64,000 nt of DNA from Trichomonas vaginalis G3 (Eukaryota > Parabasalia > Trichomonadida > Trichomonadidae), in NCBI RefSeq assembly GCF_026262505.1, contig NC_067208.1, positions 17,927,962-17,991,961 of the forward strand, read 5' to 3'. The position numbers and the translations under genes are program-made. Of this stretch, positions 12,598-33,295 are shown in pieces. The notes beneath the pieces were generated by a model. That model was given only the letters and a program-made list of their open reading frames with translations, searched no databases and was not told where the DNA came from. The first letter of the stretch is position 1. Each line of letters opens with the position of its first letter.

Positions 12598-12790
12598 AGT
12601 TAGTATACAAGTCTTGGGTATGGTGGCACTGCGTTCCACCTTACCCAATACTTGTGAATTTGACACTTTACAAAACCGTTAACGTATATTTTACAACATG
12701 AACGCAAAAACTAACTTAACCTTAAATATTTACAAAGCCGCCAACAATTTCACCTCACTATCGTTCTCACTAACAACTTCACTAATGTTC
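12598..12790. repeat. left terminus of element C
   Basis: This terminal sequence begins AGTTAGTATACAAG. It contains a GGTGGCACTGCGTTCCACC hairpin about 30-50 nt from the end and is mirrored at 33103-33295. It shares GACACTTTAC, GTAACGTATATTTTACAAC-like and CTTAACCTTAAATATTTAC blocks with the start of Maverick B at about 47910-47990. Confidence 0.85.
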
Positions 12791-13075
12791 TCATAAATTT
12801 TCCTCAATATCTTCATCATCAGTGTTAACCCTATTGTAGTCATACTTGAAGCCATAAACTTTCTCTAACTTCTTAACGTACAATTTACATAACTTACCTT
12901 CGTCATCGTATGGTTTAATGATATAACTATTTCTATCTTTATAAACAGTCAATGAAAAGTCAACTGGTCTCGGATGTATTTGAAAGAACATGTTATGCTC
13001 AGGAAGGAAGAATAAATGTTTAAATGTATGTTTGTTATATGTTTTGATTTGTATGAGTTGCTTTTGTTCTGTCAT
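12791..13075 (-). CDS. 94-aa hypothetical protein, left arm
   Basis: This is the left-arm copy of the 94-aa gene found at 32818-33102 and 1208-1492. The start is the ATG giving MTEQKQ. It lies about 190 bp from the terminus of the element and is transcribed toward that terminus. The function is unknown. Confidence 0.65.
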   Translation of the reverse strand: MTEQKQLIQIKTYNKHTFKHLFFLPEHNMFFQIHPRPVDFSLTVYKDRNSYIIKPYDDEGKLCKLYVKKLEKVYGFKYDYNRVNTDDEDIEENL

Positions 13076-13173
13076 TACATCCAAATAAAATAAAAATAAT
13101 TTTAAAAAATAAAATAAAAATAAATGATCTCACCACCCTCACACGTATGAAAACATAGCACAAAAATAAATTT

Positions 13174-13209
13174 AGGTGAAGTGGTGAGATCTAACCTCTT
13201 TTTTCACCT
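13174..13209 (-). terminator. 36-nt AGATCT-centred hairpin, left arm
   Basis: This is the mirror copy of the element at 32683-32718. It has AGGTGAA/TTCACCT outer arms and begins 19 nt after the stop of the minus-strand 82-aa gene. Confidence 0.5.
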
Positions 13210-13228
13210 CATTTCTACCCTGTTGAAT

Positions 13229-13477
13229 TCATTGCTTTATAACTCTCTTCCTTGGTTTCTCCAACTCTTCTAACTTCTTCTTAAGTTCAGCAATGTTGTC
13301 CTCATGAAGTTTAATCTTTCTCAAAATTCCTTCTTTATCTAATGGTTGCTTTATCTTTCTAAACTGAACTCTACCATCCTTCATAGTATGAATGTAAAAA
13401 CCTTCTGGAATAGTTCCTGATTTAATGTATTCTACCAAAAACTTTTGTTTCATTGCTTCAGTGACTTTAGTCGTCAT
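13229..13477 (-). CDS. 82-aa basic protein, left arm
   Basis: This is the left-arm copy of the 82-aa gene (see 805-1053), intact, with SGTIPEG like the copy at the window start. Transcription runs toward the element end, in line with the 94-aa gene downstream. The GAGTAAAATG start context is the same in all copies. Confidence 0.7.
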   Translation of the reverse strand: MTTKVTEAMKQKFLVEYIKSGTIPEGFYIHTMKDGRVQFRKIKQPLDKEGILRKIKLHEDNIAELKKKLEELEKPRKRVIKQ

Positions 13478-14244
13478 TTTACTCTAAGGTGAAGCTAGCA
13501 CAGCGATAATGGATTTCATGACTTTTTAGTATTTCATGCAATCTTAACAGATAGCCTTACAAGTACTTCCAGTGTCCCTAGCTGTCCCTCCTTTTTATAT
13601 AACTCCATGACATTTATAATCTCGCGAAACTTAACAGGTAGCATAACAGATTAAAATCAGATGAGGTTTTGAACCAAAATTTCTAAGCAACGTTGTCAAG
13701 GATTTTGAGGAACTAGGGACAGAGTGTGGCAAAGTCCAAGATTTAATTTATCTTCATCTGTTTCATCAGCTATCTCATCTAATATGCCAATATTTTATTC
13801 ATAACTCGTGGCAAACTCACTAACTTTCATTATGTTCATCTGCATGCTTCATCTGATAGAAAGTATGACTTTCATTAACTCTGTGAGATAATGAAAACTA
13901 GGGACAGAGACCATGGCAAAGTTTATGATTTTCATTATTTCCGGAACTTAATGAAAACTACTAGGGACAGAGACCATGGCAAAGTTCATGATTTAATTTA
14001 TTCTCTCACTAACAACAAACACAAACTCCAACACTAACATCAAGTACTAACCTCAGCACAAATGACAAACACTAACAACAAACACAAACTCCAACACTAA
14101 CGACAAGTACTAACCTCAGCACAAATGACAAACGCTAACAACAAACACAAACTCCAACACTAACATCAAGTACTAACCTCAGCACAAATGACAAACACTA
14201 ACAACAAACACAAACTCCAACACTAACGACAAAAATAAATGTCC
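13478..14244. repeat. non-coding leader and 62-bp tandem repeats, left arm
   Basis: No gene is seen. From 13880 to 13990 lie copies of the CTAGGGACAGAGACCATGGC repeat. From about 13995 to 14235 lies a tandem repeat of about 62 bp with CACAAACTCCAACACTAAC and AGTACTAACCTCAGCAC, four copies. The right arm holds the same arrays at about 31665-31990. Confidence 0.75.
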
Positions 14245-14968
14245 TCACTTCTTAACAAAGTAATATGTGCTTCTTACAACCATAGCTCAAACGTTTCTTT
14301 TCAAACATCGATTGAAACTTATTTTGAGCCATTGGCTTTAGTCTCTTTTTCTTCAAATACGCCAAGAAATCTTCTTCACATCTTTTCACTTCATAGCCTT
14401 CTTTAAACTCCTCCTTGTTAAGTTCTATGAAATCCTTTATCTCATTCTTTGTTGCAATGGCTTCTTCACGAACGACATCGTGAACTATTTCAACACTGTT
14501 CTCATGAACGACCTCCTCACTGTTCTCATGAACTATTTCAACACTGTTCTCATGTATGACCTCCTTACTGTTCTCATGAACTATTTCAACACTGTTCTCA
14601 TGAACGACCTCCTCACTGTTCTCATGAACTATTTCAACACTGTTCTCATGTATGACCTCCTCACTGTTCTCATGAACTATTTCATCATTGTTCTCATGAA
14701 CGACCTCCTCACTGTTCTCATGAACTATTTCATCATTGTTCTCATGAACGACCTCCTCACTGTTCTCATGAACTATTTCACTGTTCTCATGAACGACCTC
14801 CTCACTGTTCTCATGAACTATTTCATCATTGTTCTCATGAACTATTTCATCACTGTTCTCATGTATGACCTCCTCACTGTTCTCATGAACTATTTCATCA
14901 CTGTTCTCATGTTGACCTCCTCACTGTTCTCATGTATGACCTCCTCACTGTTCTCATGAACTATTTCA
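14245..14968 (-). pseudogene. octapeptide-repeat protein tail, left arm
   Basis: This is the left-arm counterpart of 30527-31645. It has a non-repetitive C-terminal tail (14245 to about 14475) and about 20 copies of a 24-bp unit encoding [IV]VHENS[EDV]E. The right arm has about 36 copies. One junction has lost bases near 14917. As in the right arm, the repeat frame is offset from the helicase frame by a small deletion where they meet (14950-14970). Confidence 0.6.
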
Positions 14969-17193
14969 TTATTGCATGTATGACCTCCTTACTGTCTTTC
15001 ATAAGCGTTTCAAAGTCTCCTTTACTCATTACTTCAATCTCATGCTGTTCACAGTAGTACTTAAACTCACTGTATATGTCTTTGTTGTATGTTATATTGC
15101 TTCCCATGTACTCCATGAATTTTTCAAGCACTTCCTCATAATTCACTGTTTCTTTCTTTCCACGACCTTCTAATATCATACTTGCTTCGTAAATATAACT
15201 TCTTGCAGAACCGTCTCGCTTTCTACTTCTCTTCACAAATTCTCTCATCTTGCCACCAAATACATTTGAACTACATGCAAAGAATTCATTCTCCTTCGCA
15301 AATTCTTTATATCTTCTGTAGCACTCTGTACAATTCCATCCGGATACAAACTTTTCATAGAACTCCTCGTAAAACATTTGGTAAGGTGTTTTGTTCATTT
15401 CGATGAGTTCTTGTTTAGCCCTGGTGAATGGTATCTTCCTTACATCAAATTCACTTAAATCTTTCTCATGAAGTACGTCAGTAAGTTTGAATAAAACTCT
15501 TCATTAAAGCTTTCAATGAGATTTGAGAAATATTCGTAATTTCCTTTGTATCTGCTGCTTACGTCAATGACAACAAATCTTCTGTCGTCTTTGTCAATCT
15601 TTACTGAGTTGAAGTTGTTAGATATCATGATGATATTACAAACATTCTCTATCTTTCTTACTGGCTGACACTTCTGATTTAAGTCCAACTGAGTCTCTGT
15701 TACTATTGACTTTAGTGCGTCGTGGTTCATGACCTTAGACGTATCGCATGAGCTTAGTTCATTGCATACGATGAGCTTCATGTTCTCAATAGCAGCATTG
15801 AATCTACCAACCACATTCTCTATTGCCGTTATATTATTGTTGGCGTACTTGCTAATGAGCTCGCATAGAACATTACTAAGTACATTCTTACCAGTTCCTT
15901 GCTTTCCTATTAACAAAAGTACTGTTCCAGTCTTTCCACAAGGATTTTGAACGATGTAGGCGAACCAGTTCAAAACATACTCATAAAGCTCTTCATCCTC
16001 ATTACATATGACATCGTGAACATGTTTCAAATATCCTTCAATAACGTTCTCATCTACTTCATTCAGTACCTCATACTCATATCCTCTGAAATAGCTGTAA
16101 ATGTCATCTCTTTCGTCAAAGAATCTCATGCCTGACTTCATAAGATAGTTCTTGTTCTGACCCGCTTCATAAATCATCAGTGCGTTCACATCCTTCTCCT
16201 CAATACGTCCTACATAAATACTCTTCATGAGCTTATTGAATTCCTTGCTATCTACTGACACAAGTGTTGTTGTGTCTCGTATTCCATCATAATCTTTCAC
16301 TAGATATGTCATACGTGCTCCGTCAATAACACAACACATCTTCTTAAGTCATTTATAACACTAGCTATGTCAATACCTTCTTCACTCATGTACTTATTTT
16401 TCCTCAAGTCCTTTAGTGTGAAAGTGTCTCTAAGTTCTATTTCAAGCAATTCATTTACACATCCTTTGCAATACTTCTCTATAAAATATTTCTGTCGTTC
16501 TTTACTAAGTTTCTTAACAGCTCTGAAGAACCATGTGTTTTGACTCAAACATCCTTCACAACTTCTCTCATTCATTCCTAGTTCTTTCATGTCATTATCT
16601 TCAACCTCTATGGTCTCATTGACTAAGGTCAAAGGGTTCTTAGTCATTGCTGGTCTTATCTGAAACAATGTTTGTGCAACAGGTTTAACTAGTTCAGCAA
16701 CGTCCTTCCTTAATATGAATAGCTGTTTCCACTCATCTTTGCTAACAGTTCTTTCATAACCACTGACAGTAATGATTTCATTTGCTGACCTTAGACACTT
16801 ATGTTCTATCATTTGTATTGCTTTTGTGTAAGGCTTTCGTGAGCATAGGTTGTATATGTCATTCCTGCAATGTTCATTCATGCCAATAGTACTAAATCCT
16901 TTCTTTGCTGTTGAGTGCATAATATCCATTAGTTCCTGTGTTCGTATTGCTGTCTCATAAAATACAACAAGACCTTTGTCATCTATGACGTACTTACCGA
17001 AAACATTGCTTATATTCTTTAACCATGAAATAACATCCTCATTCATGCTGTCAAACATGAAGTAAGGTCTTACATACTCTTCACTTATAAGATACTCCAC
17101 AAAGTACTTGTTAAGCTCTATGTCCTCGTGAGCGATTTCATTAGGTTTGATATTAGTTCCTTTTGTCATTGCTGTCATGTACTTCACTCTCAT
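14961..17193 (-). pseudogene. primase/SF3-helicase-like protein, left arm, two frameshifts
   Basis: This copy of the 28305-30539 gene is broken by two one-base deletions relative to the right arm. One is near 16326, where TGTTGTCGTTATT has become TGTTGTGTTATT. The other is near 15465, where ATGAGGAAAG has become ATGAGAAAG. Walker A (GKQGTGKN), Walker B and the SF3 motifs remain readable in the middle segment (15455-16339). Otherwise the arms are almost identical at protein level. The deletions may be real decay or consensus errors. Confidence 0.75.
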
Positions 17194-17291
17194 AGTTCCT
17201 TTCAATAGCGTAAAAACTTCATTGTTTCATAACTGCTCTAAATTCTGTTCAAAATTCGTACAACATAACTTTTTAACATTAGTGAAAGAAC

Positions 17292-17994
17292 ATGAGCGAA
17301 ACAACAACATCTAACATTACAGAAGAAGTCAATGACAATGCCGATGAAAACATTACAGAAGGAGCTAGTGAAAATATTGACGAGTTCAGTGAGGAAGAAG
17401 ATATTGAGGACGTCAATGAGAACGTTAGTGGGGAACAAACTCAATGGGAAACATTGAGAAATCATGAAGATTATGAGATTTGTACGACATATCCTTTTAC
17501 TATTCGTCGAAAGAAAAACAAACATATTAAGAGTGAATGCTTAAATAATCATGGTTATATTGAGCTTAGTTTAAACAACAAAACCATTTAAAGCATAGAA
17601 TTATTGCAGAACAGTGGATTGAAAATCCAAACAATTTGAAAGAAATAGACCATATAAATCATGATAGAACGGACAACAGAATCTCAAACCTTCGTTGGTG
17701 TTCTAAATCTGAAAACAATAGAAATAAAAGCAAGTATGGCGATATAGTTTATGAGTTCGTTGATGAAATATCTGACGAAGCTGTTGAAATAACAGATTAT
17801 GGTAAGCATTCGTTTGAGTTCTACTATATGTTGAGAATGAGGACGCATTCTATTATTATACAGGTCTTAACTATCGAAAACTTCATATAAACTTTACAAA
17901 AACAGGTGCTGCTTATGTTTGTATGATAGATACAGAAAACAAGAGAGTAATCTTATGCATAAACAAATTCAAACGCTTGTACGGCTTCATGTAG
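17292..17994 (+). pseudogene. NUMOD4/HNH endonuclease, left arm, two frameshifts
   Basis: This copy of the 27500-28204 gene has one-base deletions near 17590 (AAACGCATTT to AAACCATTT) and near 17826 (CTATTATGTT to CTATATGTT). The N-terminal acidic repeats, the NUMOD4-like segment and the HNH signature (DHINHDRTDNRISNLRW) are all visible but in different frames. It is divergent from the helicase, with about 100 bp between them. Confidence 0.75.
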
Positions 17995-18176
17995 GACAAA
18001 CATTATTTTTCAACACTAACGCCAACACGTAGGACAAACATTCATGACTAACATTACTGTATAACATAAATGTTTTGTCATGACCTCATCGTAAATGTTT
18101 TGTCATGATTTCATCGTAAATGTTTTGTCAAGACTTTTTCATCGTAATGAGCGTAAATGATCCAAAAATATATTTT

Positions 18177-18211
18177 AGGTGAAGAGGTGAGATCTCACCT
18201 CTTTTTCACCT
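18177..18211. repeat. AGATCT-centred hairpin, GGTGAA type
   Basis: AGGTGAAGAGGTGAGATCTC and its near-complement form an almost perfect palindrome of 35 nt. It follows the CCAAAAATA-type leader and is followed by extra half-arms (TTTTCTCACCTCATGAATTT). Confidence 0.6.
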
Positions 18212-18586
18212 CTTTTCTCACCTCATGAATTTTCATGACTTCTTCATCGTACATGTTTTGTCAAGACTTCTTCATCGTATATGTTTTGTCAAGACTTCTT
18301 CGTATATGTTTTGTCATGATTTAATCGTATATGTTTTGTCATGATTTAATCGTATATGTTTTGTCATGACCTCATCGTAAATGTTTTGTCATGATTTCAT
18401 CGTAAATGTTTTGTCATGATTTAATCGTATATGTTTTGTCATGATTTAATCGTATATGTTTTGTCATGACTTCTTCGTAATGAACGTACATGTTTTGTCA
18501 AGACTTCTTCGTATATGTTTTTGTCATGACTTCTTCGTATATGTTTTGTCATGATTTAATCGTATATGTTTTGTGAAGAATATAAC

Positions 18587-18613
18587 AACCGCCTGAATTC
18601 AGACGGTTGCTTT
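18587..18613. repeat. EcoRI-centred stem-loop CAACCG...CGGTTG
   Basis: CAACCGCCTGAATTC pairs with GAATTCAGACGGTTG around a GAATTC centre, followed by a T-run. It marks the start of each KilA-N fragment unit (also at about 26885, 60705, 61715 and 62725). It looks like a terminator or a recombination-prone palindrome. Its function is unknown. Confidence 0.55.
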
Positions 18614-18903
18614 TTATACAAAATTCACACAGGAAAATTCTTGAGTTTTGGTTGAAAGAATACGGTCAAGCCAAAAGTGGCTCGACCTCAAAACAAACAT
18701 TTTATGAGCTTACTAAGGCATTTATGAATGAATTCAAAGGTATTTGCATACATCCTGACCTCGTTTATTTTGTTGCTGAATGGTGCTCTGTAAAGTATGC
18801 ATTTTATGTCAAAGATATTATGGACTCCATAGATAAGAAAGTTCATGAGAAGTTAGATGAAGAAGAACTCGAAGATACAGTAGAGAATGCAAAACATTTT
18901 TGA
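18607..18903 (+). pseudogene. KilA-N domain fragment, left arm
   Basis: The open frame of about 98 codons encodes the C-terminal half of a KilA-N-type domain, with GICIHPDLVYFVAEWCSVKY and a following acidic helix. KilA-N domains are viral DNA-binding modules. The frame has no early ATG: it opens at a TTG inside the preceding stem-loop, and the first in-frame ATG is at 18724. It ends at a perfect 26-bp palindrome centred on AGATCT (18902-18927). A shortened second copy follows at about 18935-19035. It is most likely a gene fragment carried in the repeat unit. Confidence 0.6.
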
Positions 18904-19345
18904 CGAAGTGAAGATCTTCACTTCGTCAAAATGTGATGCAAAAACAAGCATTTTATGAGCTTACTAAGGCATTTATGAATGAATTCAAAGGTATTTGCAT
19001 ACATCCTGACCTCGTTCATTTTGTTGTTGAATTCAGCAAAAATAATGTTTAGGGTAGATGGTTTTTAGGTGTCACTACGTCACCATGTCACCAGGTTAAT
19101 TAACTTCTCTTAAAATTACTGACAACATGACATTTAGACAACAGTCCAGGAAATAAACTTCTTCGTAAATGTTTTGCCATGATTTCTTCGTAAATGTTTT
19201 GTCATGATTTCTTCGTATATGTTTTGTCATGATTTAATCGTATATGTTTTTGTCAAGACTTCTTCATCGTAATGAGCGTATATGTTTTGTCAAACATGAA
19301 CGTAAATGTTTTGTCATGATTTAATCGTAATGAGTGTAAATGATT

Positions 19346-19448
19346 TCATATAATTGCTTACCTCGGAAAACCGAGAGAAGAGATTCCATATGAAAATCGC
19401 AAGAATTTGGCTCCTGGTTTGAAATATTATTATGTTCATAGACTTCAT
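19346..19448 (+). pseudogene. KilA-N gene fragment (middle part), left arm
   Basis: The stretch encodes AYLGKPREEIPYENRKNLAP and onward to YYYVHRLH, matching the middle of the KilA-N protein of Maverick B (57358-58203; SLGKPREEIPYENRKNLAP). It is flanked on both sides by the short TTTTGTCATGA repeats and is too short to be a gene. Confidence 0.7.
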
Positions 19449-19710
19449 CGTATATGTTTTGTCAAACATGAGCGTATATGTTTTGTCATGATTTCATCGT
19501 AAATGTTTTGTCATGATTTAATCGTATATGTTTTGTCATGATGATTTCATCGAAACTAAACGTATATGTTTTGTCATGATTTCATCGTACATGTTTTGTC
19601 ATGATTTCATCGTATATGTTTTGTCATGACTTCTTCATCGTAATGAGTGTAAATGAACCAAAAATAATGTTTACGTTCATGTTTGACAACAACACAGGAG
19701 GAAGGCAGTT

Positions 19711-20170
19711 ATGAATTATTTTTGAAGAACTGAAGGGGTCACCAGGTCACCAGGTCACCAGGTCATTTAACTTCTCTGAAAAAGTGTGACAACATGACAT
19801 TTTGACAACATCATGGGTTATTCGATAATTAATTATTTTTGAAGAACTGAAGGGGTCACCAGGTCACCAGGTCACCAGGTCATTTAACTTCTCTGAAAAA
19901 GTGTGACAACATGACATTTTGACAACATCATGGGTTATTCGATAATTAATTATTTTTGAAGAACTGAAGGGGTCACCAGGTCACCAGGTCACCAGGTCAT
20001 TTAACTTCTCTGAAAAAATGTGACAACATGACATTTTGACAACAACACAGGAGGAAGGCAGTTATGACTTATTTTTGAAGAACTGAGGGTGCTACCATGT
20101 TACCATGTGCTACCAGGTTAATGAACTTCTCTGAAAAAATGAGACAACATGACATTTTGACAACAACACA
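19711..20170. repeat. 117-bp tandem repeats with GGTCACCAGG runs, left arm
   Basis: Three units of about 117 bp contain GGTCACCAGGTCACCAGG, then TTTAACTTCTCTGAAAAA, GACAACATGACATTTTGAC and a TTATTTTTGAAGAACTGAA joint. A fourth, divergent unit follows to about 20170. The mirror copy is at about 25290-25750. A related single unit with GTCACTACGTCACCATGTCA is found in each 1-kb unit after the gap. Confidence 0.75.
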
Positions 20171-20335
20171 GGAAATAAACTTCATCGTATATGTTTTGTC
20201 ATGATTTCTTCATCGTATATGTTTTGTCATGATTTCATCGAAACTAAACGTATATGTTTTGTCAAGACTTCTTCGTATATGTTTTGTCATGACTTCTTCA
20301 TCGTAATGAACGTAAATGACCCAAAAATAATGTTT

Positions 20336-20371
20336 AGGGTAGATGGTTAGATCTAACCTCATTTCTACCCT
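20336..20371. repeat. AGATCT-centred hairpin, GGGTAGA type
   Basis: The outer arms AGGGTAGA and TCTACCCT surround GGTTAGATCTAACC. The element is 36 nt long. Further copies of this type in the left arm lie at 20979-21014 and 21317-21352. Confidence 0.6.
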
Positions 20372-21439
20372 CATTTCTACCCTCATTGAATTTTCATGAT
20401 TTCTTCATCGTAATGAGCGTATATGCTTTGTCATGACTTCTTCATCGTAATGAGCGTATATGCTTTGTCATGACTTCTTCATCGTAATGAGCGTAAATGT
20501 TTTGTCATGATTTCTTCATCGTACATGTTTTGTCGAAACTTCATCGTACATGTTTTGTCGAAACTTCATCGTACATGTTTTGTCGAAACTTCATCGTAAA
20601 TGATTTGTCATGATTTCATCGTTTATGTTTTGTCATGATTTCTTCGTTTATGCTTTGTCATGATTTCTTCGTTTATGCTTTGTCGAAACTTCTTCATCGT
20701 AATGAGCGTATATGTTTTGTCAAGACTTCTTCATCGTATATGTTTTGTCGAAACTTCATCATCGTAATGAGTGTATATGCTTTGTCATGATTTCTTCATC
20801 GTAATGAGTGTAAATGTTTTGTCATGACTTCTTCATCGTAAATGTTTTGTCATGACTTCTTCATCGTACATGTTTTGTCATGATTTCTTCATCGTATATG
20901 TTTTGTCATGATTTCTTCATCGTAATGAGTGTATATGCTTTGTCAAACATGAACGTAAATGATCCAAAAATAATGTTTAGGGTAGATGGTTAGATCTAAC
21001 CTCATTTCTACCCTCATTTCTACCCTCATGAATTTTCATACGGAATCTCTTCGTATATGTTTTGTCATGATTTCTTCATCGTAATGAGTGTAAATGTTTT
21101 GTCGAAACTTCATCGTAAATGTTTTGTCAAGACTTCTTCATCGTAATGAGCGTATATGCTTTGTCAAACATGAGCGTAAATGTTTTGTCATGACTTCTTC
21201 ATCGTATATGTTTTGTCATGATTTCTTCATCGTATATGTTTTGTCATGATTTCTTCATCGTAATGAGTGTATATGCTTTGTCAAACATGAACGTAAATGA
21301 TCCAAAAATAATGTTTAGGGTAGATGGTTAGATCTAACCTCATTTCTACCCTCATGAATTTTCATACGGAATCTCTTCGTAAATGTTTTGTCATGATTTC
21401 TTCATCGTAATGAGCGTAAATGACCCAAAAATAATGTTT

Positions 21440-21475
21440 AGGTGAAGTGGTGAGATCTCACCTCTTTTCTCACCT
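21440..21475. repeat. AGATCT-centred hairpin, GGTGA type
   Basis: AGGTGA and TCACCT arms surround GGTGAGATCTCACC. The element is 36 nt long, with the usual AAAATAATGTTT leader on its left. Confidence 0.6.
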
Positions 21476-21928
21476 CTTTTCTCACCTCATGAATTTTCAT
21501 GACTTCTTCATCGTAATGAGCGTAAATGATTTGTCATGATTTCATCGTTTATGTTTTGTCATGATTTCTTCGTTTATGCTTTGTCAAACATGAGCGTAAA
21601 TGTTTTGTCATGACTTCTTCATCGTAATGAGCGTATATGCTTTGTCATGACTTCTTCATCGTAATGAATGTAAATGTTTTGTCATGACTTCTTCATCGTA
21701 ATGAGCGTACATGTTTTGTCATGACTTCTTCATCGTAATGAGTGTAAATGATTTGTCATGATTTCATCGTACATGTTTTGTCATGACTTCTTCATCGTAA
21801 TGAGTGTAAATGATTTGTCATGATTTCATCGTACATGTTTTGTCATGACTTCTTCATCGTAATGAGCGTATATGTTTTGTCATGACTTCTTCATCGTAAT
21901 GAGCGTAAATGACCCAAAAATAATGTTT

Positions 21929-21964
21929 ATGTTAGAATGTTAGATCTAACACCTTTTCTAACAT
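21929..21964. repeat. AGATCT-centred hairpin, GTTAGAA type
   Basis: ATGTTAGAA pairs with a TTCTAACAT-like arm around GTTAGATCTAAC. The element is 36 nt long. A second copy lies at 22157-22192, and both are mirrored at 22667-22702 and 22895-22930. Confidence 0.6.
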
Positions 21965-22628: not shown

Positions 22629-25600
22629 AATATTTATATCTAATGAAATCCTCCATGTTAGAAAACATGTTAGAAAAGGTGTTAGATCTAACATTCTAAC
22701 ATAAACATTATTTTTGGATCATTTACGCTCATTACGAAGAAGTCATGACAAAACATATACGCTCATTACGATGAAGAAGTTTCGACAAATCATTTACGAA
22801 GAAGTTTCGACAAATCATTTACGAAGAAGTCATGACAAAACATATACGTTTAGTTTCGATGAAGAAGTCATGACAAAACATGAGGTGAGAAAACATGTTA
22901 GAAAAGGTGTTAGATCTAACATTCTAACATAAACATTATTTTTGGGTCATTTACGCTCATTACGATGAAGAAGTCATGACAAAACATATACGCTCATTAC
23001 GATGAAGAAGTCATGACAAAACATGTACGATGAAATCATGACAAATCATTTACACTCATTACGATGAAGAAGTCATGACAAAACATGTACGATGAAATCA
23101 TGACAAATCATTTACACTCATTACGATGAAGAAGTCATGACAAAACATGTACGCTCATTACGATGAAGAAGTCATGACAAAACATTTACATTCATTACGA
23201 TGAAGAAGTCATGACAAAGCATATACGCTCATTACGATGAAGAAGTCATGACAAAACATTTACGCTCATGTTTGACAAAGCATAAACGAAGAAATCATGA
23301 CAAAACATAAACGATGAAATCATGACAAATCATTTACGCTCATTACGATGAAGAAGTCATGAAAATTCATGAGGTGAGAAAAGAGGTGAGAAAAGAGGTG
23401 AGATCTCACCACTTCACCTAAACATTATTTTTGGGTCATTTACGCTCATTACGATGAAGAAATCATGACAAAACATTTACGAAGAGATTCCGTATGAAAA
23501 TTCATGAGGGTAGAAATGAGGTTAGATCTAACCATCTACCCTAAACATTATTTTTGGATCATTTACGTTCATGTTTGACAAAGCATATACACTCATTACG
23601 ATGAAGAAATCATGACAAAACATATACGATGAAGAAATCATGACAAAACATATACGATGAAGAAGTCATGACAAAAACATTTACGCTCATGTTTGACAAA
23701 GCATATACGCTCATTACGATGAAGAAGTCTTGACAAAACATTTACGATGAAGTTTCGACAAAACATTTACACTCATTACGATGAAGAAATCATGACAAAA
23801 CATATACGAAGAGATTCCGTATGAAAATTCATGAGGGTAGAAATGAGGTTAGATCTAACCATCTACCCTAAACATTATTTTTGGATCATTTACGTTCATG
23901 TTTGACAAAGCATACACTCATTACGATGAAGAAATCATGACAAAACATATACGATGAAGAAATCATGACAAAACATATACGATGAAGAAGTCATGACAAA
24001 ACATTTACGCTCATGTTTGACAAAGCATATACGCTCATTACGATGAAGAAGTCTTGACAAAACATTTACGATGAAGTTTCGACAAAACATTTACACTCAT
24101 TACGATGAAGAAATCATGACAAAACATATACGAAGAGATTCCGTATGAAAATTCATGAGGGTAGAAATGAGGGTAGAAATGAGGTTAGATCTAACCATCT
24201 ACCCTAAACATTATTTTTGGATCATTTACGTTCATGTTTGACAAAGCATATACACTCATTACGATGAAGAAATCATGACAAAACATATACGATGAAGAAA
24301 TCATGACAAAACATATACGATGAAGAAGTCATGACAAAACATTTACGCTCATGTTTGACAAAGCATATACGCTCATTACGATGAAGAAGTCTTGACAAAA
24401 CATTTACGATGAAGTTTCGACAAAACATTTACACTCATTACGATGAAGAAATCATGACAAAACATATACGAAGAGATTCCGTATGAAAATTCATGAGGGT
24501 AGAAATGAGGGTAGAAATGAGGTTAGATCTAACCATCTACCCTAAACATTATTTTTGGATCATTTACGTTCATGTTTGACAAAGCATATACACTCATTAC
24601 GATGAAGAAATCATGACAAAACATATACGATGAAGAAATCATGACAAAACATGTACGATGAAGAAGTCATGACAAAACATTTACGATGAAGAAGTCATGA
24701 CAAAACATTTACACTCATTACGATGAAGAAATCATGACAAAGCATATACACTCATTACGATGATGAAGTTTCGACAAAACATATACGATGAAAAGTCTTG
24801 ACAAAACATATACGCTCATTACGATGAAGAAGTTTCGACAAAGCATAAACGAAGAAATCATGACAAAACATAAACGATGAAATCATGACAAATCATTTAC
24901 GATGAAGTTTCGACAAAACATGTACGATGAAGAAATCATGACAAAACATTTACGCTCATTACGATGAAGAAGTCATGAGAAAGCATATACGCTCATTACG
25001 ATGAAGAAGTCATGACAAAGCATATACGCTCATTACGATGAAGAAATCATGAAAATTCAATGAGGGTAGAAATGAGGGTAGAAATGAGGTTAGATCTAAC
25101 CATCTACCCTAAACATTATTTTTGGGTCATTTACGTTCATTACGATGAAGAAGTCATGACAAAACATATACGAAGAAGTCTTGACAAAACATATACGTTT
25201 AGTTTCGATGAAATCATGACAAAACATATACGATGAAGAAATCATGACAAACATATACGATGAAGTTTATTTCCTGTGTTGTTGTCAAAATGTCATGTTG
25301 TCTCATTTTTCAGAGAAGTTCATTAACCTGGTAGCACATGGTAACATGGTAGCACCCTCAGTTCTTCAAAAATAAGTCATAACTGCCTTCCTCCTGTGTT
25401 GTTGTCAAAATGTCATGTTGTCACATTTTTTCAGAGAAGTTAAATGACCTGGTGACCTGGTGACCTGGTGACCCCTTCAGTTCTTCAAAAATAATTAATT
25501 ATCGAATAACCCATGATGTTGTCAAAATGTCATGTTGTCACACTTTTTCAGAGAAGTTAAATGACCTGGTGACCTGGTGACCTGGTGACCCCTTCAGTTC

Positions 25601-27490
25601 TTCAAAAATAATTAATTATCGAATAACCCATGATGTTGTCAAAATGTCATGTTGTCACACTTTTTCAGAGAAGTTAAATGACCTGGTGACCTGGTGACCT
25701 GGTGACCCCTTCAGTTCTTCAAAAATAATTCATAACTGCCTTCCTCCTGTGTTGTTGTCAAACATGAACGTAAACATTATTTTTGGTTCATTTACACTCA
25801 TTACGATGAAGAAGTCATGACAAAACATATACGATGAAATCATGACAAAACATGTACGATGAAATCATGACAAAACATGTACGATGAAATCATGACAAAA
25901 CATATACGTTTAGTTTCGATGAAATCATCATGACAAAACATATACGATTAAATCATGACAAAACATTTACGATGAAATCATGACAAAACATATACGCTCA
26001 TGTTTGACAAAACATATACGATGAAGTCTATGAACATAATAATATTTCAAACCAGGAGCCAAATTCTTGCGATTTTCATATGGAATCTCTTCTCTCGGTT
26101 TTCCGAGGTAAGCAATTATATGAAATCATTTACACTCATTACGATTAAATCATGACAAAACATTTACGTTCATGTTTGACAAAACATATACGCTCATTAC
26201 GATGAAGAAGTCTTGACAAAAACATATACGATTAAATCATGACAAAACATATACGAAGAAATCATGACAAAATATATACGAAGAAATCATGACAAAACAT
26301 TTACGAAGAAATCATGGCAAAACATTTACGAAGAAGTTTATTTCCTGGACTGTTGTCTAAATGTCATGTTGTCAGTAATTTTAAGAGAAGTTAATTAACC
26401 TGGTGACATGGTGACGTAGTGACACCTAAAAACCATCTACCCTAAACATTATTTTTGCTGAATTCAACAACAAAATGAACGAGGTCAGGATGTATGCAAA
26501 TACCTTTGAATTCATTCATAAATGCCTTAGTAAGCTCATAAAATGCTTGTTTTTGCATCACATTTTGACGAAGTGAAGATCTTCACTTCGTCAAAAATGT
26601 TTTGCATTCTCTACTGTATCTTCGAGTTCTTCTTCATCTAACTTCTCATGAACTTTCTTATCTATGGAGTCCATAATATCTTTGACATAAAATGCATACT
26701 TTACAGAGCACCATTCAGCAACAAAATAAACGAGGTCAGGATGTATGCAAATACCTTTGAATTCATTCATAAATGCCTTAGTAAGCTCATAAAATGTTTG
26801 TTTTGAGGTCGAGCCACTTTTGGCTTGACCGTATTCTTTCAACCAAAACTCAAGAATTTTCCTGTGTGAATTTTGTATAAAAAGCAACCGTCTGAATTCA
26901 GGCGGTTGTTATATTCTTCACAAAACATATACGATTAAATCATGACAAAACATATACGAAGAAGTCATGACAAAACATATACGAAGAAGTCTTGACAAAA
27001 CATGTACGTTCATTACGAAGAAGTCATGACAAAACATATACGATTAAATCATGACAAAACATATACGATTAAATCATGACAAAACATTTACGATGAAATC
27101 ATGACAAAACATTTACGATGAGGTCATGACAAAACATATACGATTAAATCATGACAAAACATATACGATTAAATCATGACAAAACATATACGAAGAAGTC
27201 TTGACAAAACATATACGATGAAGAAGTCTTGACAAAACATGTACGATGAAGAAGTCATGAAAATTCATGAGGTGAGAAAAGAGGTGAAAAAAGAGGTGAG
27301 ATCTCACCACTTCACCTAAAATATATTTTTGGATCATTTACGCTCATTACGATGGAAAAGTCTTGACAAAACATTTACGATGAAATCATGACAAAACATT
27401 TACGATGAGGTCATGACAAAACATTTATGTTATACAGTAATGTTAGTCATGAATGTTTGTCCTACGTGTTGGCGTTAGTGTTGAAAAATA
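22629..27490. repeat. right-arm short-repeat array with hairpins and gene fragments
   Basis: This is the inverted counterpart of 17995-22231. Units read TCATGACAAAACATATACG then ATGAAGAAG. The 36-nt hairpins lie at 22667-22702, 22895-22930, 23384-23419, 23507-23542, 23834-23869, 24170-24205, 24508-24543, 25075-25110 and 27282-27317. A block of about 340 bp containing one GGGTAGA-type hairpin occurs several times in a row (23507-24560), which explains most of the extra length over the left arm. KilA-N fragments lie at 26041-26120 (minus) and 26591-26887 (minus). Confidence 0.8.
26591..26887 (-). pseudogene. KilA-N domain fragment, right arm
   Basis: This is the inverted copy of the fragment at 18607-18903, identical at protein level. 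It too opens at a TTG in the GAATTC-centred stem-loop and ends at the AGATCT-centred 26-bp palindrome. It is read as a carried gene fragment, not a gene. Confidence 0.6.
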
Positions 27491-27499
27491 ATGTTTGTC

Positions 27500-28204
27500 C
27501 TACATGAAGCCGTACAAGCGTTTGAATTTGTTTATGCATAAGATTACTCTCTTGTTTTCTGTATCTATCATACAAACATAAGCAACACCTGTTTTTGTAA
27601 AGTTTATATGAAGTTTTCGATAGTTAAGACCTGTATAATAATAGAATGCGTCCTCATTCTCAACATAATAGTAGAACTCAAACGAATGCTTACCATAATC
27701 TGTTATTTCAACAGCTTCGTCAGATATTTCATCAACGAACTCATAAACTATATCGCCATACTTGCTTTTATTTCTATTGTTTTCAGATTTAGAACACCAA
27801 CGAAGGTTTGAGATTCTGTTGTCCGTTCTATCATGATTTATATGGTCTATTTCTTTCAAATTGTTTGGATTTTCAATCCACTGTTCTGCAATAATTCTAT
27901 GCTTTAAATGCGTTTTGTTGTTTAAACTAAGCTCAATATAACCATGATTATTTAAGCATTCACTCTTAATATGTTTGTTTTTCTTTCGACGAATAGTAAA
28001 AGGATATGTCGTACAAATCTCATAATCTTCATGATTTCTCAATGTTTCCCATTGAGTTTGTTCCCCACTAACGTTCTCATTGACGTCCTCAATATCTTCT
28101 TCCTCACTGAGCTCGTCAATATTTTCACTAGCTCCTTCTGTAATGTTTTCATCGGCATTGTCATTGACTTCTTCTGTAATGTTAGATGTTGTTGTTTCGC
28201 TCAT
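27500..28204 (-). CDS. NUMOD4/HNH homing-type endonuclease, right arm (intact)
   Basis: The protein has 234 residues. Residues 1-55 are an acidic low-complexity region with repeated EN-I/V-(T/D/S)-E motifs. Residues about 55-100 match the NUMOD4 pattern (QWETLRNHEDYEICTTYPF). The HNH nuclease core follows, with DHINHDRTDNRISNLRW then CSKSENNRNKSKYG. About 90 further residues have no clear match. Such proteins cut DNA at specific sites and spread themselves or their host element (known for the family). A related protein lies in Maverick A at 36923-37597. It is divergent from the helicase at 28305. Confidence 0.8.
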   Translation of the reverse strand: MSETTTSNITEEVNDNADENITEGASENIDELSEEEDIEDVNENVSGEQTQWETLRNHEDYEICTTYPFTIRRKKNKHIKSECLNNHGYIELSLNNKTHLKHRIIAEQWIENPNNLKEIDHINHDRTDNRISNLRWCSKSENNRNKSKYGDIVYEFVDEISDEAVEITDYGKHSFEFYYYVENEDAFYYYTGLNYRKLHINFTKTGVAYVCMIDTENKRVILCINKFKRLYGFM

Positions 28205-28304
28205 GTTCTTTCACTAATGTTAAAAAGTTATGTTGTACGAATTTTGAACAGAATTTAGAGCAGTTATGAAACAATGAAGTATTTTTACGCTATTGAAAGG
28301 AACT

Positions 28305-30539
28305 ATGAGAGTGAAGTACATGACAGCAATGACAAAAGGAACTAATATCAAACCTAATGAAATCACTCACGAGGACATAGAGCTTAACAAGTACTTTGTG
28401 GAGTATCTTATAAGTGAAGAGTATGTAAGACCTTACTTCATGTTTGACAGCATGAATGAGGATGTTATTTCATGGTTAAAGAATATAAGCAATGTTTTCG
28501 GTAAGTACGTCATAGATGACAAAGGTCTTGTTGTATTTTATGAGACAGCAATACGAACACAGGAACTAATGGATATTATGCACTCAACAGCAAAGAAAGG
28601 ATTTAGTACTATTGGCATGAATGAACATTGCAGGAATGACATATACAACCTATGCTCACGAAAGCCTTACACAAAAGCAATACAAATGATAGAACATAAG
28701 TGTCTAAGGTCAGCAAATGAAATCATTACTGTCAGTGGTTATGAAAGAACTGTTAGCAAAGATGAGTGGAAACAGCTATTCATATTAAGGAAGGACGTTG
28801 CTGAACTAGTTAAACCTGTTGCACAAACATTGTTTCAGATAAGACCAGCAATGACTAAGAACCCTTTGACCTTAGTCAATGAGACCATAGAGGTTGAAGA
28901 TAATGACATGAAAGAACTAGGAATGAATGAGAGAAGTTGTGAAGGATGTTTGAGTCAAAATACATGGTTCTTCAGAGCTGTTAAGAAACTTAGTAAAGAA
29001 CGACAGAAATATTTTATAGAGAAGTATTGCAAAGGATGTGTAAATGAATTGCTTGAAATAGAACTTAGAGACACTTTCACACTAAAGGACTTGAGGAAAA
29101 ATAAGTACATGAGTGAAGAAGGTATTGACATAGCTAGTGTTATAAATGACTTAAGAAGATGTGTTGTCGTTATTGACGGAGCACGTATGACATATCTAGT
29201 GAAAGATTATGATGGAATACGAGACACAACAACACTTGTGTCAGTAGATAGCAAGGAATTCAATAAGCTCATGAAGAGTATTTATGTAGGACGTATTGAG
29301 GAGAAGGATGTGAACGCACTGATGATTTATGAAGCGGGTCAGAACAAGAACTATCTTATGAAGTCAGGCATGAGATTCTTTGACGAAAGAGATGACATTT
29401 ACAGCTATTTCAGAGGATATGAGTATGAGGTACTGAATGAAGTAGATGAGAACGTTATTGAAGGATATTTGAAACATGTTCACGATGTCATATGTAATGA
29501 GGATGAAGAGCTTTATGAGTATGTTTTGAACTGGTTCGCCTACATCGTTCAAAATCCTTGTGGAAAGACTGGAACAGTACTTTTGTTAATAGGAAAGCAA
29601 GGAACTGGTAAGAATGTACTTAGTAATGTTCTATGCGAGCTCATTAGCAAGTACGCCAACAATAATATAACGGCAATAGAGAATGTGGTTGGTAGATTCA
29701 ATGCTGCTATTGAGAACATGAAGCTCATCGTATGCAATGAACTAAGCTCATGCGATACGTCTAAGGTCATGAACCACGACGCACTAAAGTCAATAGTAAC
29801 AGAGACTCAGTTGGACTTAAATCAGAAGTGTCAGCCAGTAAGAAAGATAGAGAATGTTTGTAATATCATCATGATATCTAACAACTTCAACTCAGTAAAG
29901 ATTGACAAAGACGACAGAAGATTTGTTGTCATTGACGTAAGCAGCAGATACAAAGGAAATTACGAATATTTCTCAAATCTCATTGAAAGCTTTAATGAAG
30001 AGTTTTATTCAAACTTACTGACGTACTTCATGAGGAAAGATTTAAGTGAATTTGATGTAAGGAAGATACCATTCACCAGGGCTAAACAAGAACTCATCGA
30101 AATGAACAAAACACCTTACCAAATGTTTTACGAGGAGTTCTATGAAAAGTTTGTATCCGGATGGAATTGTACAGAGTGCTACAGAAGATATAAAGAATTT
30201 GCGAAGGAGAATGAATTCTTTGCATGTAGTTCAAATGTATTTGGTGGCAAGATGAGAGAATTTGTGAAGAGAAGTAGAAAGCGAGACGGTTCTGTAAGAA
30301 GTTATATTTACGAAGCAAGTATGATATTAGAAGGTCGTGGAAAGAAAGAAACAGTGAATTATGAGGAAGTGCTTGAAAAATTCATGGAGTACATGGGAAG
30401 CAATATAACATACAACAAAGACATATACAGTGAGTTTAAGTACTATTGTGAACAGCATGAGATTGAAGTAATGAGTAAAGGAGACTTTGAAACGCTTATG
30501 AAAGACAGTAAGGAGGTCATACATGCAATAATGAAATAG
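28305..30539 (+). CDS. primase/SF3-helicase-like replication protein, right arm
   Basis: The product has 744 residues from the first in-frame ATG. Residues 1 to about 300 are of unknown fold and include a possible zinc ribbon (CEGC and CKGC, about 30 residues apart). The SF3 helicase core follows with Walker A LLLIGKQGTGKNVL, Walker B MKLIVCNEL and motif C IIMISNNFNSVKI then DDRRFVVID. The C-terminus has two small helical, winged-helix-like segments. The core is homologous to 10273-11508. The start is uncertain: a short alternative frame from ATG 28274 (MKYFYAIERN) looks coding too, so a frameshift near the start is possible. The stop may also be premature (see the next feature). Confidence 0.8.
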   Translation: MRVKYMTAMTKGTNIKPNEITHEDIELNKYFVEYLISEEYVRPYFMFDSMNEDVISWLKNISNVFGKYVIDDKGLVVFYETAIRTQELMDIMHSTAKKGFSTIGMNEHCRNDIYNLCSRKPYTKAIQMIEHKCLRSANEIITVSGYERTVSKDEWKQLFILRKDVAELVKPVAQTLFQIRPAMTKNPLTLVNETIEVEDNDMKELGMNERSCEGCLSQNTWFFRAVKKLSKERQKYFIEKYCKGCVNELLEIELRDTFTLKDLRKNKYMSEEGIDIASVINDLRRCVVVIDGARMTYLVKDYDGIRDTTTLVSVDSKEFNKLMKSIYVGRIEEKDVNALMIYEAGQNKNYLMKSGMRFFDERDDIYSYFRGYEYEVLNEVDENVIEGYLKHVHDVICNEDEELYEYVLNWFAYIVQNPCGKTGTVLLLIGKQGTGKNVLSNVLCELISKYANNNITAIENVVGRFNAAIENMKLIVCNELSSCDTSKVMNHDALKSIVTETQLDLNQKCQPVRKIENVCNIIMISNNFNSVKIDKDDRRFVVIDVSSRYKGNYEYFSNLIESFNEEFYSNLLTYFMRKDLSEFDVRKIPFTRAKQELIEMNKTPYQMFYEEFYEKFVSGWNCTECYRRYKEFAKENEFFACSSNVFGGKMREFVKRSRKRDGSVRSYIYEASMILEGRGKKETVNYEEVLEKFMEYMGSNITYNKDIYSEFKYYCEQHEIEVMSKGDFETLMKDSKEVIHAIMK

Positions 30540-31645
30540 TTCATGAGAACAGTGAGGAGGTCATACATGAGAACAGTGAGGAGGTCATACATGAGAACAG
30601 TGATGAAATAGTTCATGAGAACAGTGAGGAGGTCATACATGAGAACAGTGATGAAATAGTTCATGAGAACAATGATGAAATAGTTCATGAGAACAGTGAG
30701 GAGGTCGTTCATGAGAACAGTGATGAAATAGTTCATGAGAACAGTGAGGAGGTCGTTCATGAGAACAATGATGAAATAGTTCATGAGAACAGTAAGGAAG
30801 TCGTTCATGAGAACAATGATGAAATAGTTCATGAGAACAGTGAGGAGGTCATACATGAGAACAGTGTTGAAATAGTTCATGAGAACAGTGAGGAGGTCGT
30901 TCATGAGAACAATGATGAAATAGTTCATGAGAACAGTAAGGAAGTCGTTCATGAGAACAATGATGAAATAGTTCATGAGAACAGTGAGGAGGTCATACAT
31001 GAGAACAGTGTTGAAATAGTTCATGAGAACAGTGAGGAGGTCGTTCATGAGAACAGTGTTGAAATAGTTCATGAGAACAGTGAGGAGGTCATACATGAGA
31101 ACAGTGTTGAAATAGTTCATGAGAACAGTAAGGAGGTCGTTCATGAGAACAGTGTTGAAATAGTTCATGAGGACAGTGAGGATGTCATACATGAGAACAG
31201 TGTTGAAATAGTTCATGAGAACAGTGAGGAGGTCGTTCATGAGAACAATGATGAAATAGTTCATGAGAACAGTAAGGAAGTCGTTCATGAGAACAATGAT
31301 GAAATAGTTCATGAGAACAGTGAGGAGGTCATACATGAGAACAGTGTTGAAATAGTTCATGAGAACAGTGAGGAGGTCGTTCATGAGAACAGTGTTGAAA
31401 TAGTTCACGATGTCGTTCGTGAAGAAGCCATTGCAACAAAGAATGAGATAAAGGATTTCATAGAACTTAACAAGGAGGAGTTTAAAGAAGGCTATGAAGT
31501 GAAAAGATGTGAAGAAGATTTCTTGGCGTATTTGAAGAAAAAGAGACTAAAGCCAATGGCTCAAAATAAGTTTCAATCGATGTTTGAAAAGAAACGTTTG
31601 AGCTATGGTGGTGTAAGAAGCACATATTACTTTGTTAAGAAGTGA
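30527..31645 (+). CDS. octapeptide-repeat region, probably the helicase C-terminus, frame-offset
   Basis: The open frame overlaps the helicase end and has no start codon of its own. It encodes about 36 copies of an eight-residue unit [IV]VHENS[EDV]E (24 bp each). A non-repetitive tail follows, ending at 31645 and matching 1-161. The helicase ends in EVIHAIMK, itself one degenerate repeat. At the junction about four bases are missing relative to a perfect repeat, which shifts the frame. An ancestral helicase with a long repeat linker and a third winged-helix-like tail is the simplest reading. Both arms share the offset. Confidence 0.55.
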   Translation, partial: NNEIVHENSEEVIHENSEEVIHENSDEIVHENSEEVIHENSDEIVHENNDEIVHENSEEVVHENSDEIVHENSEEVVHENNDEIVHENSKEVVHENNDEIVHENSEEVIHENSVEIVHENSEEVVHENNDEIVHENSKEVVHENNDEIVHENSEEVIHENSVEIVHENSEEVVHENSVEIVHENSEEVIHENSVEIVHENSKEVVHENSVEIVHEDSEDVIHENSVEIVHENSEEVVHENNDEIVHENSKEVVHENNDEIVHENSEEVIHENSVEIVHENSEEVVHENSVEIVHDVVREEAIATKNEIKDFIELNKEEFKEGYEVKRCEEDFLAYLKKKRLKPMAQNKFQSMFEKKRLSYGGVRSTYYFVKK

Positions 31646-32414
31646 GGACATTTATTTTTGTCGTTAGTGTTGGAGTTTGTGTTTGTTGTTAGTGTTTGTC
31701 ATTTGTGCTGAGGTTAGTACTTGATGTTAGTGTTGGAGTTTGTGTTTGTTGTTAGCGTTTGTCATTTGTGCTGAGGTTAGTACTTGTCGTTAGTGTTGGA
31801 GTTTGTGTTTGTTGTTAGTGTTTGTCATTTGTGCTGAGGTTAGTACTTGATGTTAGTGTTGGAGTTTGTGTTTGTTGTTAGTGAGAGAATAAATTAAATC
31901 ATGAACTTTGCCATGGTCTCTGTCCCTAGTAGTTTTCATTAAGTTCCGGAAATAATGAAAATCATAAACTTTGCCATGGTCTCTGTCCCTAGTAGTTTTC
32001 ATTATCTCACAGAGTTAATGAAAGTCATACTTTCTATCAGATGAAGCATGCAGATGAACATAATGAAAGTTAGTGAGTTTGCCACGAGTTATGAATAAAA
32101 TATTGGCATATTAGATGAGATAGCTGATGAAACAGATGAAGATAAATTAAATCTTGGACTTTGCCACACTCTGTCCCTAGTTCCTCAAAATCCTTGACAA
32201 CGTTGCTTAGAAATTTTGGTTCAAAACCTCATCTGATTTTAATCTGTTATGCTACCTGTTAAGTTTCGCGAGATTATAAATGTCATGGAGTTATATAAAA
32301 AGGAGGGACAGCTAGGGACACTGGAAGTACTTGTAAGGCTATCTGTTAAGATTGCATGAAATACTAAAAGTCATGAAATCCATTATCGCTGTGCTAGCTT
32401 CACCTTAGAGTAAA
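31646..32414. repeat. non-coding leader and 62-bp tandem repeats, right arm
   Basis: No gene is seen. Four copies of a unit of about 62 bp with GTTAGTGTTGGAGTTTGTG lie at 31665-31890. They are followed by CATGGTCTCTGTCCCTAG repeats and a unique leader to the 82-aa gene. It mirrors 13478-14244. Confidence 0.75.
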
Positions 32415-32663
32415 ATGACGACTAAAGTCACTGAAGCAATGAAACAAAAGTTTTTGGTAGAATACATTAAATCAAGAACTATTCCAGAAGGTTTTTACAT
32501 TCATACTATGAAGGATGGTAGAGTTCAGTTTAGAAAGATAAAGCAACCATTAGATAAAGAAGGAATTTTGAGAAAGATTAAACTTCATGAGGACAACATT
32601 GCTGAACTTAAGAAGAAGTTAGAAGAGTTGGAGAAACCAAGGAAGAGAGTTATAAAGCAATGA
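32415..32663 (+). CDS. 82-aa basic protein, right arm
   Basis: This is the right-arm copy of the 82-aa gene (see 805-1053), intact, with one substitution (SRTIPEG for SGTIPEG). The 36-nt hairpin follows the stop at 32683-32718. Confidence 0.7.
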   Translation: MTTKVTEAMKQKFLVEYIKSRTIPEGFYIHTMKDGRVQFRKIKQPLDKEGILRKIKLHEDNIAELKKKLEELEKPRKRVIKQ

Positions 32664-32682
32664 ATTCAACAGGGTAGAAATG

Positions 32683-32718
32683 AGGTGAAAAAAGAGGTTA
32701 GATCTCACCACTTCACCT
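32683..32718 (+). terminator. 36-nt AGATCT-centred hairpin, right arm
   Basis: The outer arms AGGTGAA and TTCACCT lie 19 nt beyond the 82-aa stop. This is the same element as at 1073-1108. Confidence 0.5.
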
Positions 32719-32817
32719 AAATTTATTTTTGTGCTATGTTTTCATACGTGTGAGGGTGGTGAGATCATTTATTTTTTATTTTATTTTTTAAAATTATTTT
32801 TATTTTATTTGGATGTA

Positions 32818-33102
32818 ATGACAGAACAAAAGCAACTCATACAAATCAAAACATATAACAAACATACATTTAAACATTTATTCTTCCTTCCTGAGCATAA
32901 CATGTTCTTTCAAATACATCCGAGACCAGTTGACTTTTCATTGACTGTTTATAAAGATAGAAATAGTTATATCATTAAACCATACGATGACGAAGGTAAG
33001 TTATGTAAATTGTACGTTAAGAAGTTAGAGAAAGTTTATGGCTTCAAGTATGACTACAATAGGGTTAACACTGATGATGAAGATATTGAGGAAAATTTAT
33101 GA
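32818..33102 (+). CDS. 94-aa hypothetical protein, right arm
   Basis: This is the right-arm copy of the 94-aa gene (see 1208-1492), intact. It is transcribed toward the element end at 33295. Confidence 0.65.
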   Translation: MTEQKQLIQIKTYNKHTFKHLFFLPEHNMFFQIHPRPVDFSLTVYKDRNSYIIKPYDDEGKLCKLYVKKLEKVYGFKYDYNRVNTDDEDIEENL

Positions 33103-33295
33103 GAACATTAGTGAAGTTGTTAGTGAGAACGATAGTGAGGTGAAATTGTTGGCGGCTTTGTAAATATTTAAGGTTAAGTTAGTTTTTGCGTTCATGTTGT
33201 AAAATATACGTTAACGGTTTTGTAAAGTGTCAAATTCACAAGTATTGGGTAAGGTGGAACGCAGTGCCACCATACCCAAGACTTGTATACTAACT
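33103..33295. repeat. right terminus of element C
   Basis: This is the mirror of 12598-12790. It ends ...CTTGTATACTAACT at 33295 and is followed by the ATAAC target duplication. An apparent upstream extension of the ATPase frame through this stretch opens at a GTG within the terminus and is not a real start. Confidence 0.85.

Follow-up and report, generated by a model that had tools for sequence, protein, structure and literature searches.

How can a mobile element be built almost entirely of two inverted copies of the same sequence, and what keeps these copies alike? The question is raised by a 64,000-bp stretch of the Trichomonas vaginalis G3 genome (NCBI RefSeq assembly GCF_026262505.1, contig NC_067208.1, positions 17,927,962 to 17,991,961 of the forward strand; hereafter the window), in which a palindrome of 20.7 kb occupies positions 12598-33295. 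Its arms of approximately 9.6 and 10.7 kb surround a spacer of 392 bp (22234-22625) and encode a helicase and an HNH endonuclease. The explanation that we favour, with a probability of roughly 0.6, is that the palindrome belongs to a non-autonomous family that lives off Mavericks, and that its arms are made identical at each round by fold-back replication.

A preliminary description of this stretch, made from its letters alone, had proposed a near-perfect palindrome around a spacer of about 400 bp, with arms alike gene for gene and matching ends flanked by a 5-bp duplication. Self-BLAST and a global alignment of the two arms bear this out. The inverted matches pair 12598-14995 with 33295-30837 (96.1% identity), 14478-22125 with 31026-23311 (94.1%) and 20187-22233 with 24712-22626 (88.2%), percentages that are low mainly because the lengths of the tandem arrays differ. 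In the global alignment, 12598-20097 shows only 12 mismatches over the 7,498 positions compared. The total amounts to 136 mismatches and 1,090 gap columns, the remaining 124 mismatches being located in the inner minisatellite and the centre. Most of the remaining difference between the arms is array length, the left 48-bp coding array having approximately 10 copies and the right one 18. The gene-for-gene likeness holds for the genes present, with the left helicase and HNH genes each in three frame pieces and the right copies open. The termini are AGTTAGTATAC and GTATACTAACT, with ATAAC on both sides as the target duplication.

The same arrangement recurs across the genome (180,853,573 bases, 86 contigs). 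For each probe, pairs were counted among 100 listed sites, and the pair counts are thus samples rather than a census. A 47-mer from the helicase gene has 179 genomic sites with up to three mismatches, and 80 of the 100 listed form 40 adjacent minus-plus pairs, where 0.9 pairs would be expected. Their spacing ranges from 2.1 to 38.3 kb, with a median of 13.0 kb, and the order is the same in 40 of the 41 adjacent couples less than 45 kb apart. Half of the 20 further listed sites are provided with an inverted partner or a complete centre by other searches. As for the HNH gene, a 50-mer has 185 genomic sites, and 42 inverted pairs are found among those listed. Other copies with both arms, which a genome search had been proposed to look for, are therefore common, and the palindrome is the usual form of a numerous family, an outcome in favour of the preliminary description. 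In an unusual order, three helicase sites lie within 7.3 kb at C1:11718440-11725709 as minus, plus and minus, which looks like a rearranged or nested copy.

Integration as a single unit had been surmised from the duplication at the window element. We took the surroundings of both ends for 14 elements (10 pairs as well as the window element, L009/L010, L011/L012 and L015/L016) and recognised ends with at most two mismatches to the end motif. Both ends were identified in 11 of the 14; for L036/37, L038/39 and L050/51, one end lies outside the fetched stretch or was not recognised. All 11 both-ended elements are bounded by an exact target duplication of 5-6 bp, as opposed to none of 110 mismatched left-right pairings. 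The whole palindrome thus integrates as one unit with a 5-6-bp duplication. Empty sites were found as well. For L046/L047 (C3:27.21 Mb), the exact empty target is present in the window at 40722-40726, inside mariner-type transposase remnants (40640-41787). For L048/L049, a near-identical empty target is located near 10410-10417 of the window. Its flanks show 99% and 94% identity, and although a search for the exact string failed at this place, the aligned sequences agree across the site. The ends of L015/L016 are 186 kb apart and share the 6-bp duplication AACTTG, and this palindrome may hold approximately 166 kb of later insertions. Positions 1-1685 of the window are the right end of another palindrome copy, whose left end is probably L015, 186 kb upstream.

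The arms of one element resemble each other far more than they resemble those of other elements. Within an element, the helicase genes differ by 0-5 mismatches (mean 1.5 in approximately 1,285 positions, 11 elements), whereas between elements the mean is 7.9 and the range 0-19 (220 comparisons), a difference about five times smaller within than between. Similarly, the outer 130 bp are 98.4-100% identical within elements (9 elements) and 89% identical on average between them (range 80.7-100, 144 comparisons). The HNH variant is the same in both arms in 41 of the 42 pairs found among the listed sites, with a mean of 21.7 and a maximum of 30 after shuffling, although discordant pairs may hide among the 16 unpaired listed sites. 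A palindrome inherited unchanged, with arms evolving apart, was rejected, since the difference within an element should then be at least as large as that between elements. The arms must have been re-made or corrected.

Two processes might do so. One is gene conversion on the chromosome after insertion, which would keep the arms alike as in large chromosomal palindromes, transposition only making copies. It also predicts identity within the element and concordant variants, and near-identical inverted arms that change together, as one would expect of a hairpin replicon, would look much the same under conversion. The HNH nuclease, whose gene is present in each arm of the window element, could initiate it. 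The distribution of variants points the other way. Of 25 minor-allele sites, six are shared between elements, and 19 of their 20 occurrences are two-armed, whereas 12 of the 19 private ones are one-armed. This fits identity at birth followed by decay and favours re-making at birth. The seven private variants that are two-armed are in keeping with conversion, and the unequal array lengths of the window arms are not. We consider conversion rather unlikely.

The ends of the palindrome indicate where its replication functions may come from. Used as a query, the first 1,003 bp have 45 genomic matches, 40 of them full-size; 12 reach the end of the query and 28 stop at base 876-890, the latter with identities of 95-98% over the outer 890 bp. 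All nine elements of this second kind that were examined encode a PolB homologue. The terminal 890 bp with a small open reading frame (ORF), the AGTTAGTATAC-type ends, the 5-6-bp duplication and a related superfamily 3 (SF3) helicase and HNH gene are all common to the palindrome and the Mavericks/Polintons of T. vaginalis. In contrast, each half of the palindrome is an inverted-repeat arm, with at least 4 kb of minisatellite per arm in the window copy, and the helicase lacks a primase motif region (see below). Searches by tblastn with the proteins of one window Maverick as the query, in 10-kb pieces and at E values up to 1e-8, gave no match to PolB and none to the rve-type integrase, whether in the window arms or in the palindrome loci, of which all 10 searched were negative. 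A short KilA-N hit of 53 residues is present in L016. L017 has an ATPase match of 34% identity and, further inward, another terminal-repeat ORF, probably in a nested insertion.

The palindromes thus have the terminal inverted repeats and the target duplication of Polintons/Mavericks, while the polymerase and the rve-type integrase were not found in the loci searched. We therefore file them as a palindromic satellite variant and not as Mavericks: they carry the ends of an autonomous family, and its transposition genes were not detected. The preliminary reading needs one correction, in that the element is not itself a self-replicating Maverick; these functions have to be borrowed, or others used in their place. 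A protein-primed polymerase and an integrase are encoded by Mavericks (PMC6431247). Since the palindrome has the ends and the duplication length of Mavericks, and the loci searched gave no match to either enzyme, it is strongly suggested that the PolB and integrase of Mavericks mobilise the palindrome in trans.

The right-arm helicase is of the SF3 class and matches DUF5906, VapE-like and Parvo_NS1 families; it is 40% identical over 369 residues to the helicase of the neighbouring Maverick. The HNH nuclease is of the phage type, as it belongs with phage HNH families, and is 36% identical over 86 residues to the Maverick HNH domain. In an alignment of 33 of the 83 protein relatives found, a YFDFDS...SMHVVF-type region is kept in 32 (SxH in 31, SMY in P0006), P0015 being truncated there. 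Its DxD and SxH elements are what we take to be the archaeo-eukaryotic primase motifs. The palindrome protein, P0001, reads YFMFDS, with MFD in place of DFD, followed by a deletion that removes the SxH segment, and P0005, its near-identical database copy, has the same deletion. So do all nine readable helicase-bearing palindrome loci (L009, L010, L011 and L015-L020). Among 57 genomic copies scored out of 4,381 candidates, for only part of which an N-terminal match is listed, the N-terminal matches stop at query residue 99 and resume at 128, or cross this stretch with approximately 27-30 residues less than the query has. P4-type primase-helicases (TIGR01613; PDB 6k9c/6k9e) match in their C-terminal helicase half, with a TIGR01613 score below the curated cut-off, but differ in that the palindrome family is devoid of the N-terminal primase motif region.

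The open helicase frame exceeds 760 residues in 45 of the 57 scored copies (range 665-1,891), as expected if it continues into the 48-bp array. The window copy has an interrupted helicase on the left, and the helicase on the right ends at 30536. The extreme is L011 (C2:9952317-9970221), where the array is greatly expanded, the frame is open over 1,891 residues and most of the helicase is gone from the right arm. With regard to purifying selection, variants among the helicase genes comprise 9 synonymous and 16 amino-acid-changing ones, against a naive synonymous expectation of 0.19 that includes no model of substitution bias. No relative was confirmed in viral contigs with P0001 or alignment A1, and nothing in Rfam passed the gathering cut-offs. 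From PHROGs and NCBIfam, the only additions were matches to the helicase/primase C-terminus and to HNH, besides weak low-complexity ones.

The centre of the palindrome is also conserved. A 54-mer core has 173 sites genome-wide, and 86 of the 100 listed form 43 convergent pairs. Of the 40 listed core pairs less than 800 bp apart, 38 are spaced by 215 + 86k bp within 3 bp, where 3.5 would be expected. This quantised spacing means that the inverted core flanks direct 85/86-bp units, and the centre thus consists of a conserved inverted 54-bp core around direct 85-bp units. Units in both orientations occur in three elements, among 100 of 208 sites listed. Two separate elements, at C1:10116425 and C4:20728908, have an enlarged centre with 1604-1606 bp between the cores, perhaps a marked lineage that transposed with an insert. 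At C4:26353651-26358284, several core-spacer-core centres lie at one locus, as would follow from duplication or rearrangement of the turnaround.

It is tempting to propose how such an element would be copied. Replication would start at the terminal repeat and displace a strand, which would snap back along its full 10-kb arms to give a hairpin with the spacer as its loop. The single end of this hairpin would be a complete origin, and the arms of the palindrome would become identical again either by synthesis that passes through the loop or by repair of mismatches in the stem. The helicase that the element encodes, minus the primase motif region, would serve this replication; priming of a lagging strand would be unnecessary, which would fit the loss of that region. 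The Maverick integrase would then insert the product, generating the 5-6-bp duplication. The centre may also be where the HNH nuclease acts, unless its gene is a homing gene. Replication through a hairpin is what we infer from these features. In its full form, the proposal is a new class of transposon, a hairpin-replicating Maverick satellite whose heritable form is a gene-bearing palindrome with one terminal origin, a discarded primase and a conserved core-loop-core turnaround, the two halves being rebuilt at each round from a single strand; we advance it tentatively and give it somewhat less than even odds.

Several observations weigh against a Maverick-dependent family renewed by fold-back replication. 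Ten of the 100 listed helicase sites have no demonstrated inverted partner, one of them near a contig end, and single-arm copies may exist. One helicase couple (C1:11720572 and C1:11725709), the only one among the listed sites, is in the opposite, plus-minus orientation, and we also count one opposite-order HNH couple, which belongs to two neighbouring elements. The unequal tandem arrays of the window arms imply incomplete homogenisation or fast array change. Distance between the arms must be considered too. Where the arms are separated by more than 30 kb, in five elements, we counted 3, 5, 5, 1 and 5 mismatches (mean 3.8). In 12 elements with arms close together the mean was 3.5, as compared with 9.3 between elements (724 comparisons). 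Distant arms thus show no clear difference from close ones, and the comparison favours neither fold-back nor conversion. The close pair L068/L069 showed 28 mismatches here and 5 earlier, which we take as end misalignment, the other eleven averaging 1.3; L075/L076 overlapped only partly (1,041 positions). Identity of the arms could, by itself, also arise by gene conversion after insertion. Finally, mobilisation in trans is deduced from common ends and missing genes.

Alternatively, the palindrome might be a self-primed, rolling-hairpin replicon that uses its own helicase and a host polymerase and obtained Maverick ends through recombination. A helicase of the Parvo_NS1/VapE/DUF5906 class without primase motif region and a conserved centre would suit such a replicon. 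However, scans of the element ORFs against Pfam, PHROGs and NCBIfam revealed no nicking or rolling-circle domain, and the match of both ends and duplication length to Mavericks points to the Maverick integrase. We regard this scenario as quite improbable.

Still less probable is that these are ordinary Mavericks joined head to head, like the end-to-end fused Mavericks of the T. vaginalis literature, which PMC7845603 mentions in passing. Against this, besides the lack of PolB and integrase matches in the loci searched, the inner genes of the palindrome are only distant relatives of the helicase and HNH genes of the Mavericks compared (36-45% identity), and chance fusions, even if repeated, would not be expected to share one recurrent centre of quantised spacing. 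The related idea of a chance head-to-head insertion of two Mavericks was rejected, as one duplication encloses the whole palindrome and 40 of 41 couples are in the same order. As for an artefact of fold-back reads, long inverted repeats are hard to assemble and a 100-N gap lies beside similar repeats in the window, but false palindromes were rejected on the strength of the exact target duplications in all 11 both-ended elements, the empty sites elsewhere, the differences between arms in array length and small variants, and the core spacing quantised over many loci.

The favoured reading, a palindromic satellite of Mavericks renewed by fold-back replication, can be set beside several known systems. 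FoldBack/Galileo-type transposons, too, consist largely of very long inverted repeats that include tandem arrays. The present arms differ in that they carry replication genes and end like Mavericks, with a duplication of 5-6 bp. Palindromic derivatives are predicted for protein-primed replicons, and the inverted-dimer deletion forms of yeast linear killer plasmids and symmetric recombinant adenovirus DNA are such derivatives. Like our palindrome, they are head-to-head, both ends being the same origin-bearing terminus, and they are explained by snap-back of a displaced strand. They are, however, laboratory or defective, extrachromosomal forms, whereas the T. vaginalis palindromes are inherited and integrated at many sites, with a conserved centre. 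To our knowledge, palindromic derivatives of this sort are known only as defective plasmid or virus molecules.

Maverick-type elements whose inverted repeats measure several hundred bases are familiar (PMC12220804). The accessible parts of the papers searched (including PMC12695648, PMC10120064, PMC7845603, PMC6431247 and PMC12220804, subscription papers and preprints lying outside the set) contain no account of a palindromic family of elements in Trichomonas, nor of a gene-bearing one in general. In this organism, a palindromic derivative appears to have established itself as a heritable parasite of the genome, inserted dozens of times and carrying in its arms a record of the age of each insertion. 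The family represents a natural record of how giant palindromes arise and persist in a eukaryotic genome, and comparing arms across isolates makes the snap-back question testable. Our results also suggest that some of what counts as 'Maverick' sequence in this genome belongs to a distinct parasite of Mavericks.

Table 1. Features of the palindromic element, in window coordinates.
Feature	Position	Strand	Remark
Target-site duplication ATAAC, left	12593..12597		
Left end, 890 bp common to Maverick terminal repeats	12598..13487	+	Terminal-repeat matches; PolB in such elements
48-bp coding array, left arm, ~10 copies	14481..14969	-	
SF3 helicase (DUF5906/VapE-like), left arm, 3 frame pieces (14964-15500, 15458-16348, 16312-17226)	14964..17226	-	
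HNH endonuclease, left arm, 3 frame pieces	17286..17991	+	
25- to 117-bp minisatellite arrays, inner left arm	18067..22141		
Centre core, left copy; overlaps perfect palindrome TGTTAGATCTAACA at 22166	22170..22223	+	54-mer, 173 sites genome-wide
Axis spacer; direct 85-bp units (array 22286-22648, 4.3 copies)	22234..22625		
Centre core, right copy, inverted	22636..22689	-	
Minisatellite arrays, inner right arm, including 338-bp x 3.9 array (23437-24749)	22720..27427		
HNH endonuclease, right arm, 236 residues stop to stop	27503..28210	-	Pfam HNH_3, E 3.8e-11; phage HNH families
SF3 helicase, right arm, 753 residues stop to stop; lacks the N-terminal primase motif region	28278..30536	+	
48-bp coding array, right arm, ~18 copies	30531..31407	+	
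Right end, Maverick-type terminal repeat, mirrors left end; inner limit approximate	32406..33295	-	
Small ORF within terminal repeat; same ORF in Maverick terminal repeats	32689..33099	+	
Target-site duplication ATAAC, right	33296..33300		

The surroundings of the element contain further repeats and Maverick remains. A match to Pox_A32, a packaging-type ATPase, at 33215-34042, to the right of the insertion, indicates that the palindrome inserted in or at such a Maverick gene. The reading frames of this interrupted Maverick are overlapped by a 22-bp tandem array at 35304-35595. Further on, an AT-rich inverted repeat of 818 bp, with arms 99.8% identical, bounds a 3.9-kb stretch (43958-47838) that ends beside a Maverick-type end at 47855. 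At the right edge of the window (58745-64000), the 100-N gap is followed by the inner-arm minisatellite of the palindrome family in tandem units of approximately 1.01 kb, 98.9% alike, perhaps another palindrome copy that is expanded or misassembled.

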